From the NCBI GenBank assembly GCA_021780705.1, contig JAJXYG010000141.1, forward strand, positions 1 through 7,625: a stretch of 7,625 nucleotides of DNA, read 5' to 3'. The DNA comes from Bacteroidota bacterium (GTDB lineage: Bacteria > Bacteroidota > Bacteroidia > Chitinophagales > Chitinophagaceae). The position numbers and the translations under genes were made by a program. Under the pieces are notes generated by a model, which was given only the letters and a program-made list of their open reading frames with translations, was not told the origin of the DNA and made no database searches. Shown here piece by piece: positions 1-7,625 of this stretch (its first letter is position 1; the number at the start of each line of letters is the position of its first letter).

Positions 1-670
1 TAAATTTTTGCACCGGCTCATAAAGGGTTCGATACACTGCTACTTGAGCAATTTTTTCGCCGTGTATTTCTAAAGCAAGAGTGCTTTGCTCCAACTTCAA
101 AGCCGCAATTTTCACAGGAAGATCGTTCAAGGCCATAAGTCCTGCCTTGAGTCCCTTCAATGATTCAGTTTCGGTTTCATTTCCTTCCAGTTTTGTCCGC
201 TTGTCCTGCCAATCAGCCAATTCTTTTAGGTAAGCCTGATATACGCGATTGGGAGCATCAAGGTTTGCCTGAAGATCGGAAAGCTTGGTTTGGCTATCAA
301 GCAATTGTTTTTTGAGATTGAGGGGATTGGTTTCGTCCAACTGCGTCTTGGTCGTAGCAACTTTCGTTATTGCTTCGTCGCGGATTTTCTCCACGCCGGA
401 TTTTTTAATTTCAATCTGGTCTGCCTTGACATTACCTTCAATGGTGCCGAAGATAATGGCAGATTTGGTGTGTACATTGCCTTCAATGAGGCCTTTTTCA
501 CCTAATACAATGCCTTCGCTTACATCGACATTGCCGACAATTTTTCCTTCTACTCGGATGCTGGAAGAGCCATTAATTTCACCAGTGATGGTATAGCCTT
601 CTCCGATGATGGTGGAAATTTCCTGGGTGGTGATTTCAAGGGATTTTTGCTTGGTATTCTTCTTAAACAT
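1..670 (-). CDS. Bactofilin N-terminal domain fused in frame to an SMC-like coiled coil (partial)
   Basis: I translated the minus strand from the ATG at 668-670: 223 codons without a stop, running off the window edge. Residues 1 to about 92 are a bactofilin: a short polar N-tail, the EISTIIGEGYTITGEI entry and repeated short beta-helix rungs (IRVEGKIVGNV, IVLGEKGLIEGNV, AIIFGTIEGNV, then DQIEIKKSG). Bactofilins polymerise into cytoskeletal filaments and in many bacteria position M23 peptidases. A normal bactofilin would add about 40-50 more beta-helix residues. Here, from about residue 93 (position 394), the sequence becomes charged and helical, with heptad-like Leu/Ala spacing, then LDAPNRVYQAYLKELADWQ and ending YRTLYEPVQKF. 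That second part resembles the coiled coil of SMC/Rad50-like AAA ATPases, possibly the TrlF type found in defence loci; I make that match from memory and am unsure of it. The ATG lies two bases after the M23 stop, so translation is probably coupled. Fusion, insertion and assembly error are all possible. Confidence 0.8.
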   Translation of the reverse strand, partial: MFKKNTKQKSLEITTQEISTIIGEGYTITGEINGSSSIRVEGKIVGNVDVSEGIVLGEKGLIEGNVHTKSAIIFGTIEGNVKADQIEIKKSGVEKIRDEAITKVATTKTQLDETNPLNLKKQLLDSQTKLSDLQANLDAPNRVYQAYLKELADWQDKRTKLEGNETETESLKGLKAGLMALNDLPVKIAALKLEQSTLALEIHGEKIAQVAVYRTLYEPVQKF

Positions 671-672
671 AA

Positions 673-1515
673 TTACTTAAGGGTTAAGAATGGTTCAGGG
701 TTAATTTGTTTGCCGTTTTTGTGCACCTCATAATGTAGATGGGGACCTGTGGACCTGCCGGTGGAACCGATCTTGCCAATCTGCTGGCCGATATCCACCT
801 TTTGTCCCACACATACGAGGATTTTGGACAGGTGTCCGTACAGGGTTTCATATCCATTGCCATGCTTCAGCATGATGCAGTTTCCAAATCCCCCTCTTTT
901 GCCGGCAAATTCCACGGTGCCTTTGGCCATGGCCCTTACCGGGGATCCGATTGGACCACTGATGTCGAGGCCCTTGTGGGTTTCAATATTGTCACCGCCA
1001 AAGGGATTTTCCCTGTGTCCGAATGTGGATGTGATGGTTCCGTGAAATGGGAAACCGAGCGGGGTATAAGCCAGATTGAAGAGTACCCGGTTGAGATACC
1101 CTTCATAAAAACCGGTGATCTCCTGTGGTGAAATGATGTCGCTGTCGGCTTCCCCTCCTTCAGGTCCTTTGACGACCGGTCTTATCCCTCTTTCACGCAA
1201 GTATTTATTAATGGTGGACAAATCTTTGTCAATATTGACAAACCGCTCTTTAATAGAACTGGTATCAATTTCGTGCAACGTTTCGTGAAGGGAAAGCAGT
1301 TTATGAGACAAGTTGGTCCGGGCGGCCACTTCCTGATAGTTGCAGGAAATCAGATAGCCAATCATCCAGACCAGGCCGGCAAATACCAGCAAAAGTGCGG
1401 CGATGTATTTTTTCCAGTTGGCCAGAAGCCTGCTGGAAACATGAAGGGGTTTAATTGGAGTGGAGCCGGTGGTTACAAATAGGATAGTGGTCTTTTCTTT
1501 TCGATTTTTCATCAT
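673..1515 (-). CDS. Membrane-anchored M23 family metallopeptidase (peptidoglycan endopeptidase)
   Basis: The protein has 280 residues: a short basic cytoplasmic tail, one transmembrane segment at about residues 35-57, a helical stretch at 60-110 and a C-terminal LytM/M23 domain at about 155-278. The zinc site is intact. H180 and D184 are in HKGLDIS and H261 is in GPHLHYEV, with the catalytic histidines H228 (YGHLS) and H259. The family cuts peptide cross-links in peptidoglycan, and the topology puts the domain in the periplasm. The gene is followed after two bases by the bactofilin gene, a pairing known from several phyla in which the filament localises the hydrolase for cell-shape control; that role is inferred here. 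Two consecutive ATG codons (1513-1515 and 1510-1512) could each be the start. The AT-rich spacer upstream is the likely promoter region, but I could not pick a convincing TAnnTTTG element. Confidence 0.93.
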   Translation of the reverse strand: MMKNRKEKTTILFVTTGSTPIKPLHVSSRLLANWKKYIAALLLVFAGLVWMIGYLISCNYQEVAARTNLSHKLLSLHETLHEIDTSSIKERFVNIDKDLSTINKYLRERGIRPVVKGPEGGEADSDIISPQEITGFYEGYLNRVLFNLAYTPLGFPFHGTITSTFGHRENPFGGDNIETHKGLDISGPIGSPVRAMAKGTVEFAGKRGGFGNCIMLKHGNGYETLYGHLSKILVCVGQKVDIGQQIGKIGSTGRSTGPHLHYEVHKNGKQINPEPFLTLK

Positions 1516-3762: not shown

Positions 3763-4750
3763 TTCTGTAAGCAACAGGCTGCAACCACGGATGTCACTAT
3801 TGTCGCGGCGTCCCATGACCTCAAATTGGCTATTGGCATGAAGCCGCCCAAGGTCATCGGTGGCGATAAAGGAGCAGGCGTACAGATTGGCCAGGTCAAT
3901 GATATTGATCAATCCCGAAAGGGGCTTTTGACCCTGGGGAAGCGCCCTTATACTGAGTGGATCATTTTCCTCCCGGATCAATATCCGCATCCAGGGAGGG
4001 CATCTGAAAATACCTGCTTCACTGGAATATGCCTGGGAAAGGAGTTCAGTCATGCCGTACTCGGAATGAACGGTTGAGACGCCGAGCCGGGATTTCAACT
4101 CATGGTGTACGGCCTCACGGGTCAACTCTTCCCGCCTTCCTTTCATGCCCCCGGTTTCCATGACGGTCGTATTATGGAGTTCCATGGAATGTTTCTCAGC
4201 AAAATCCAGCAGGGCAAAGGTTACCCCCAGAAGCAAAACAGGTTGGCGGGCAATTTCAAGGTGTAACAGGCTGCGATAAAGGGCATCCCAGTCATTGAGA
4301 TAGAAGCCGCTTTCTGGGTGGGTACTGGCTCGAATTAATTCATCAGCCATCATTATCAGGGAAGAGTGACCCCGCTCCCAATACCCTGGTAACAAGGCCA
4401 GTATCCGCCAGTCCCGCGGATCTCCGTAAAATTGGTGGAAAGCAGTGAGAAAACTCCTGCGATACAGGGACAAATCTTTCACATAATGCCTGCTGGTGGA
4501 TGTCCCCGTGGTACCGCTACTTTCAAAGATTTCCTCTTCCTTAAATTCAGTAGTGGCGACCTTCGCGGATTTGAAAAATGAAATGGGCAGGAAAGGGATT
4601 TTTTCCAGGGAAGTGACTTCACGGATACTGATACCCAGCGCGTCCACATAATTTCGATAAAGGACATTGTGGGCATACTGAAATTGAAATACTTCGAGTG
4701 CCGTGGGTTCAAAATCCTCCCCCCGGATCTGGAAAATTTTATCTTCCCAT
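3745..4750 (-). CDS. LuxE/PaaK-like acyl-protein synthetase (adenylate-forming), 5' end uncertain
   Basis: This is a soluble adenylate-forming enzyme of the LuxE acyl-protein synthetase family, which activates an acyl group with ATP and transfers it to a carrier or cysteine. Counting from the GTG at 4645-4647 (300 residues), motifs in order are the phosphate loop SSGTTG (43-48), ETGGMKGRR (164-172), SEYGMTE (195-201), ATDDLGR (262-268) and GRRDNSDIRGC (279-289). Family members have about 30 more N-terminal residues. The same frame does continue upstream as KIFQIRGEDFEPTALEVFQF, matching the family start, back to a stop at 4801-4803, yet it holds no ATG, GTG or TTG before 4647. The well-placed ATG at 4748-4750 is one base out of frame (ATGGGAAGAT; dropping one G gives M-E-D-K-I-F). 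So the gene has a one-base frameshift, a sequencing error, a rare start codon, or truly starts at 4647. No LuxC or LuxD partner is nearby, so the substrate is unknown. Confidence 0.85.
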
Positions 4751-4787
4751 TTAGATTTTTCTGAAAAGTTATTCAGTTTTAAAGTTT

Positions 4788-4795
4788 TATTTTTG
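4788..4795 (+). promoter_or_regulatory. Bacteroidota-type -7 promoter element
   Basis: TATTTTTG matches the Bacteroidota -7 consensus TAnnTTTG and lies 18 bases before the lipoprotein ATG (4814), which would give a very short leader. No exact TTTG -33 element sits at the right distance; only TTCTG near 4759-4763 is close. This probably drives the lipoprotein, UbiA-like and possibly M42 genes. Confidence 0.4.
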
Positions 4796-4813
4796 AATAA
4801 TTAATTTACAAAG

Positions 4814-5254
4814 ATGCGATACCTGCTGTTATTAACCATTGTGTCCTTGGTGGTTTTTGCCTCCTGCCGCAAAAATACTGCGAACAGTGCACCTACCCTC
4901 AAGTTCAAATCCGTCAATACCACCCAGCTTCACCAGCAGGAACTCATCCACTTCACCCTGGCCTTCACTGACGGCCCTGGAAATTTACTGGACAGCGTAT
5001 ATGTGGAGGAAAAGGTGCCCAATTGCCCCACCAGCAATCTGAGCGGCTATTTTCCCGTTCCCGCATTTCCCACTTCCAAGAACCAGAAGGGGGATGTCGT
5101 GGTAACGTTTGGCTACAATGTAAGTGGCTATACCAGTCTGTCACCGCAATGCCAGGAAAACGATACTGCCGTTTTCAGGTTTGCGATCAGAGACGTAAAC
5201 AAAAACACCAGTGATACCGTTTCCTCTCCACCCATTATCCTGTATTACCAATAG
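4814..5254 (+). CDS. Small lipoprotein, function unknown
   Basis: The protein has 146 residues. The N-terminus is a lipoprotein signal: MRY, a hydrophobic core of about 12 residues, then FASC with the lipidated Cys at position 18. The mature part is polar and beta-rich, with a TLAFTDGPGNLLDSVYVEE stretch (residues 48-66) and FAIRDVNKNTSDT (123-135). These are typical of small Ig-like beta-sandwich lipoproteins in Bacteroidota. Two further cysteines (C71, C113) could form a disulfide. No acidic surface-export signal follows the lipid Cys, so it may stay on the periplasmic side of the outer membrane. It is the first gene of a plus-strand group and its stop overlaps the next start (TAGTG). I do not recognise a specific family. 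Confidence 0.82.
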   Translation: MRYLLLLTIVSLVVFASCRKNTANSAPTLKFKSVNTTQLHQQELIHFTLAFTDGPGNLLDSVYVEEKVPNCPTSNLSGYFPVPAFPTSKNQKGDVVVTFGYNVSGYTSLSPQCQENDTAVFRFAIRDVNKNTSDTVSSPPIILYYQ

Positions 5255-6099
5255 TGTTTTTCAATAAAATTGGACATTTTATCCTTTTTGGCAGCATCTA
5301 CATTGCTATCTGTGCCATTGCGCTCTGCCTGCAGACCAGCATGACCCTGGATATCCCCTTCAACAAATTAAGTTTCTATTGTTTTGTTTTTGGAGCGACG
5401 CTTGCCCAATATAATCTCCATTACCTGGTAAAAAAAAAGGCGGTAAAGAACTCCAAGAGGCTTGCCTGGTCCATGAAGCATAAGGTGACCCATAAGGTGC
5501 TTTTTGCCACCGGGATCCTGTTGATCCTCTTTAGCTTTTTTGGCTTCAGGCTAAAGCACTTCTTTATCCTGGGAGTGCTGGGCGTGATTTCCCTGTTATA
5601 TTCCTTTCCCGTGCTTCCCTTTGGAAAGAAACGGATCAAGGATTACGGGTATCTGAAGATCATTACCCTCTCCCTTTTGTGGACCGTGGTTACCGTTTGG
5701 TTTCCGGCGGTAAATCACCCCTTCGACCTGAAATTGTTTGCTTTTGTTTTTATGAAAAGATTTGTATTCATGTTCGTGTTGTGCCTGATTTTTGACGTGC
5801 GTGATATCGAAATTGATTACGAGGAAAGAATTCATACCGTAGCCGTCATCCTGGGCAAGAAGCGGTCCTACTGGTTGTCATACATGGCGTTGCTCCTATT
5901 TTTGCTGCTGGCTGTTTTCCAGAACCTGTATTACCCCGATATGAAGGAGTTGTGGGCCATGGTGGTTTCATCGGTGTGCACCTTCCTGATCATAGAGGTT
6001 TCCAAAAAGAACCACTCCGATATCGTATACCTTGCAGGAATAGATGGAATGATGTTGTTGCAACCCCTGCTGATCTACGTATTCGGTATAATGTTTTAA
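5254..6099 (+). CDS. UbiA-superfamily-like integral membrane protein
   Basis: This 281-residue protein has about nine hydrophobic segments between residues 7 and 280. Its layout fits the UbiA prenyltransferase superfamily, whose members attach isoprenoid chains to aromatic acceptors at the inner membrane using two Asp-rich motifs and Mg2+. The second motif is well kept: DVRDIEIDYEERIHT (D181, D184, D188), followed by a conserved LG..R patch (199-204). The first motif, normally NDxxDxxxD, is not recognisable; the matching loop after segment 2 reads AQYNLHYLVKK (51-61), with no Asp. The protein may therefore be a divergent or catalytically altered member; I call the fold, not the reaction. The GTG start at 5254 overlaps the last base of the lipoprotein stop, indicating translational coupling. 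There are no menaquinone or heme genes beside it to suggest a substrate. Confidence 0.75.
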   Translation: MFFNKIGHFILFGSIYIAICAIALCLQTSMTLDIPFNKLSFYCFVFGATLAQYNLHYLVKKKAVKNSKRLAWSMKHKVTHKVLFATGILLILFSFFGFRLKHFFILGVLGVISLLYSFPVLPFGKKRIKDYGYLKIITLSLLWTVVTVWFPAVNHPFDLKLFAFVFMKRFVFMFVLCLIFDVRDIEIDYEERIHTVAVILGKKRSYWLSYMALLLFLLLAVFQNLYYPDMKELWAMVVSSVCTFLIIEVSKKNHSDIVYLAGIDGMMLLQPLLIYVFGIMF

Positions 6100-7299: not shown

Positions 7300-7625
7300 A
7301 TGGAAATAAGAAACAATTGGACCAGGGAGGAAATCTCCGAAATCTATCATAGCCCACTGTTGGAACTGATCTATGAGGCTGCTACCGTGCATCGGAAATT
7401 TCATTCTACAGGGGAGGTACAGGTGTGTACCCTGTTATCCATCAAGACCGGGGGGTGTCCGGAAGATTGTGCCTATTGTCCGCAATCCGCAAAATATAAT
7501 ACCGGCCTGGATACCCAGGCTCTTATGAAAAAGGAAGAAGTGATCGCATACGCCGAGCGGGCCAAAAAAGCAGGAGCTACCCGCTTTTGCATGGGGGCTG
7601 CCTGGAGAGAAGTGCGGGATAACCG
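7300..7625 (+). CDS. bioB: Biotin synthase, N-terminal part (cut by window end)
   Basis: Reading from the ATG at 7300 gives 108 complete codons before the window ends; the full protein is normally about 320-350 residues. BioB is the radical-SAM enzyme that inserts sulfur into dethiobiotin, the last step of biotin synthesis, in the cytosol. The radical-SAM motif [13 protein letters not shown] carries C53, C57 and C60, which bind the 4Fe-4S cluster. C97 in RFCMGAAWR is the first ligand of the auxiliary 2Fe-2S cluster. These positions coincide with those of the E. coli enzyme, which supports the chosen start. The gene begins 61 bases after the M42 gene on the same strand. No BirA-type operator palindrome is visible upstream. 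Other bio genes, if present, lie beyond the window. Confidence 0.97.

Follow-up and report, generated by a model that had tools for sequence, protein, structure and literature searches.

A bactofilin frame that runs into a TrlF-type coiled coil at a contig end is most likely an assembly chimera

Bactofilins are bacterial filament proteins, and the 118 found in the best 120 of 481 matches considered here are short (127–151 aa). The system closest to the first half of the locus is a short bactofilin (PF04519) beside an M23 peptidase, as in Bacteroidota of the Hanamia/Ginsengibacter type. Its second half resembles the TrlF family of AAA-like ATPases (NCBIfam TrlF_fam_ATP, NF045780); TrlF-type ATPases are predicted defence proteins. 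A bactofilin acting with an M23 endopeptidase has already been described (title and abstract opening of PMC10945521). In the titles and abstract openings returned by literature searches on bactofilin coiled coils and domain architecture, no bactofilin–ATPase fusion was named, and the name TrlF did not occur in the papers listed by further searches. Chimeric assemblies of prokaryotic genomes have been studied in their own right (PMC8201837, title and abstract opening).

The window analyzed here, the whole stretch of 7,625 bases, is an entire contig (C60) of a draft genome that comprises 390 contigs and 2.06 Mb and is 59% complete. At one end of the contig, positions 7300–7625, a gene is truncated that we take to be a biotin synthase look-alike (CxxxCxxC motif), and the other genes of the contig appeared ordinary on reading. 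At the opposite end, a 223-aa frame (670..2, minus strand) runs without interruption from a bactofilin into a coiled coil, just as the initial annotation had described, and exits the contig, still open, at position 1. Codons 1–93 (392..670, minus strand) are the 5′ portion of a normal bactofilin gene. The next 130 codons (2..391, minus strand) stem from the later coiled-coil region of an ATPase in the TrlF family and run off the contig end. The odd part thus makes up the final 391 bases of the contig, i.e., the physical end of the assembled piece. At the junction (386..415, minus strand), bactofilin residues ...IEIKKSGV meet TrlF residues EKIRDEA..., and the two families resemble one another at this place. 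We infer that the frame is most likely an assembly chimera and not a new architecture, with a probability of roughly 0.93.

PF04519 matched residues 20–93 of the frame with an E value of 3e-15 and 56.6 bits, which passes the curated cut-off of 27.9 bits. The match covered model positions 1–75 of 98, and the final rungs of the beta-helix (positions 76–98) are missing, as had been claimed; in the intact 129-aa bactofilin P0001, the best match among the matches listed, positions 1–97 are covered. Residues 1–93 were identical to P0001 at 93 of 93 positions, as compared to 52–72% identity (over matched residues) for 13 bactofilins of the same genus, which makes P0001 a very close relative of the window. 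The identity stopped after residue 93 (codon 394–392), in agreement with a junction placed earlier near position 394. Past this residue, P0001 continues with VNGDITTDNLEIELGAQYNGKLNMKKQVVPSLAEAS, giving the normal last rungs and the canonical tail VNGDITTDNLEIELGAQYNGKLNMKKQ; an intact gene would be expected to continue beyond codon 93 with VNGDITTDNLEIEL. Of the 118 bactofilins (best 120 of 481 matches), 106 share the tail pattern of P0001, as do 11 of 12 other aligned rows, the twelfth of which enters Ns.

Matches to P0001 were found in 13 of the 19 other genomes of the genus, and all but one of the 13 extended to residue 119 or beyond, out of 129. The bactofilin gene at locus L037 (genome G018) enters Ns past residue 103, and its end cannot be judged. 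In the window, the bactofilin and its M23 neighbor keep the gene order of the genus. The Peptidase_M23 gene (673..1515, minus strand; PF01551, E 1e-37), whose partnership with the bactofilin had been recognized correctly, stops 2 bases ahead of the bactofilin start. At all nine readable loci of the genus (13 in all), a gene with the HLHYE motif of the window's peptidase, or one like it, ends 1–6 bases before the bactofilin. The gene order was read by a script at nine of the 13 loci, that is, at all except L035, L038, L039, and L040; the bactofilin locus of L035, read separately, was intact, while the bactofilins of L038, L039, and L040 were judged by match spans, which reached residues 125, 120, and 119 of 129, respectively. 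Residues 1–93 and the gene order are therefore ordinary for this type of bactofilin, whereas the frame differs from it in the absence of the last rungs and tail, with foreign sequence in their place.

The suggestion of a TrlF-type coil was borne out by a profile search, in which NF045780 matched residues 11–131 of the coil piece (E 9e-6). The score, 24.6 bits, is far below the curated cut-off of 350 bits because just 117 of 944 model positions (586–702) are present, and so short a piece could hardly attain it. Residues 94–223 of the frame fit these positions and were 67% and 75% identical to P0002 and P0004, respectively, which are TrlF fragments, both without a bactofilin part. These matches show the coil to be, as judged by its sequence, a TrlF fragment. 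The N-terminal hydrolase-like part of TrlF, Walker A, the LSPGE signature, and Walker B all lie outside the piece contained in the frame (Walker B and the N-terminal part were assessed by eye), and a search of the 223 residues for Walker A and LSPGE patterns found neither. P0004 reads on into its signature motif, LSPGERG, and then into Walker B (VIDQPEGNLDN); at 294 bits in the TrlF model it is under the 350-bit cut-off because it is a fragment. The longer relatives P0239 and P0241 exceed the cut-off. They carry Walker A (GNKGSGKS) at residues 57 and 299, respectively, and the stretch matching the coil lies far after it, at ~340 and ~590; the LSPGE signature of P0239 is at 595, and the N-terminal hydrolase-like part of P0241 is CehA/McbA-like. 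In another TrlF-family protein, P0129 (622 aa), Walker A is absent, and the N-terminal hydrolase-like part leads straight onto the coil's second half; this protein is possibly another misjoin or a deletion.

If the frame were a real, strain-level fusion, illegitimate recombination would have attached the C-terminal half of TrlF downstream of bactofilin codon 93, and the product would be a filament-anchored coil. To evaluate recurrence, both halves were compared, at an E value of 1e-3, with 242 proteins from three protein searches. Among the matches listed, 118 proteins matched the bactofilin half, 102 matched the coil half, and none matched both, the bactofilin-side and coil-side sets being the best 120 of 481 and the best 120 of 711 matches. 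The bactofilin-side search (candidates of 123–390 aa) contributed 118 bactofilin matches and two coil matches in its best 120 of 481; the bactofilin half matched none of the best 120 of 711 coil relatives; and with a 475-aa probe, which yielded 10 matches among 2,864 candidates of 261–831 aa, all 10 fit the coil. A second protein with bactofilin and TrlF parts was thus not seen in the 242 compared, among the matches listed, and an ATPase anchored to a filament, as the initial annotation had envisaged, found no support in them. The complete identity of the 93 residues to an intact bactofilin also argues against a real fusion, as does the makeup of its product, which would be without Walker A, the TrlF N-terminal hydrolase-like part, and the last beta-helix rungs. 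Since Walker A and the last rungs are missing, both halves of such a product would probably be inactive. We consider a real fusion very unlikely.

A further rival reading is that a defence gene or island was inserted in the bactofilin gene of this strain. TrlF proteins do resemble the anti-phage protein Ppl: P0004 matched the PADLOC Ppl model with an E value of 2e-16, and NCBIfam Ppl_antiphage also finds matches among TrlF proteins (PADLOC gave no match for the coil piece itself). However, an insertion would be expected to bring a gene start or end or a mobile element, whereas here the middle of a TrlF coil begins in frame, and no element end was noticed on reading of the contig. Among 395 genomes of the phylum, four besides its own matched the coil, with identities of no more than 33% and each within a frame of 838–1027 aa; the longest frame contained the LSPGE signature at all four loci, and the bactofilin word EISTIIG at none. 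With P0002 as the query, a single genome, G001, matched among the 19 others of the genus. It encodes a complete 990-aa TrlF protein (600 bits; 28% identical over the coil) on its contig C27, whereas its intact bactofilin adjoins an M23-like gene on a different contig, C1, which argues against an insertion. The G001 TrlF gene (L022:5562–8534, minus strand) is adjoined by unrelated frames at 4503–5255 (plus strand) and 9266–9877 (minus strand). Relatives with an intact bactofilin and with the coil gene elsewhere had been proposed as the mark of a chimera, and such are P0001, which has the identical 93 residues in an intact bactofilin, and G001, with its intact bactofilin and its TrlF gene on separate contigs. 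An insertion appears extremely unlikely, and of the three readings offered at the outset, it is the misjoin that fits best; fusion and insertion are not supported.

The misjoin is favored because the foreign part forms the last 391 bases of the contig, because database proteins carry the two halves separately, and because P0001 is identical up to the join. On this reading, the bactofilin gene is an ordinary one to which, during metagenome assembly, ~390 bases from the gene of an unrelated TrlF-family ATPase would have been attached at the contig end. The join itself was studied by comparing the eight residues in front of it in 14 TrlF relatives, hand-picked as extending before the join, with bactofilin residues 86–93. 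For nine of the 14, the score ranked within the top 1% among all pairings of the two proteins, and for the other five it was at 1.5–8.7%; the best, at 0.04%, was that of P0128 (LSIKKASA against IEIKKSGV of the bactofilin). The two genes thus tend, at the level of predicted protein, to encode similar residues where they are joined. Because the join falls at such a place, a short shared DNA word probably produced a false overlap; a search for the donor DNA of the coil in genome contigs and viral contigs confirmed no relative. Likeness at the join suits a false assembly overlap, and it would equally suit real recombination. Among the TrlF relatives in the best 120 of 711 matches, the few that bear an organism name come from drafts of Chloroflexota, Phycisphaeraceae, Terriglobia, Syntrophales, and others, and none of these is named as Bacteroidota; the donor is therefore plausibly another organism of the sample.

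Several observations count against a misjoin. No stop codon interrupts the frame at the join, which also speaks for a real fusion, yet by our reasoning this would occur by chance in about one case in three, and more often if the overlap was coding in register. The similar GC content on either side, likewise a point in favor of a real fusion, amounts to 44.3% for the coil and 41.7% for the bactofilin part, against 46.2% for the full contig, so that the composition is alike across the junction, as had been reported. In its trinucleotide usage the coil deviates somewhat (among 171 overlapping tiles of equal size from the remaining contig, nine were as far or farther), which counts little; base composition across the join is weak evidence only and nearly uninformative. 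P0121 matches the coil no less closely than P0002 does (68%), yet its likeness at the join was only moderate (top 2.1%), and that of P0125 was slight (8.7%). P0001 might also belong to a sister strain that lacks the fusion. The missing bactofilin end and the remainder of the TrlF gene were also not found in the draft genome. There, full-length P0001 matched C60 only, and its 36-aa tail gave no match, an empty answer that, without a positive control, shows nothing. A search of the draft genome for overlaps with the contig end gave 13 matches besides the window, all of 25 bases or less, and no overlap was recognized. Nor was a remainder of TrlF recognized: besides the window there were four weak matches, three of them on C38, C333, and C358, and the best, which was the one inspected, resembles RecN. 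These absences say little, because the genome is 59% complete.

When a draft genome is fragmented, an in-frame join less than a few hundred bases from the end of a contig can mimic a new architecture despite matching composition, and the locus serves as a caution in this respect. It is highly improbable that this strain has its own fusion, in which the C-terminal half of TrlF hangs on a bactofilin filament and a cell-shape scaffold becomes the place where a defence protein docks. If true, such a fusion would tie a defence-type ATPase to a bacterial filament.
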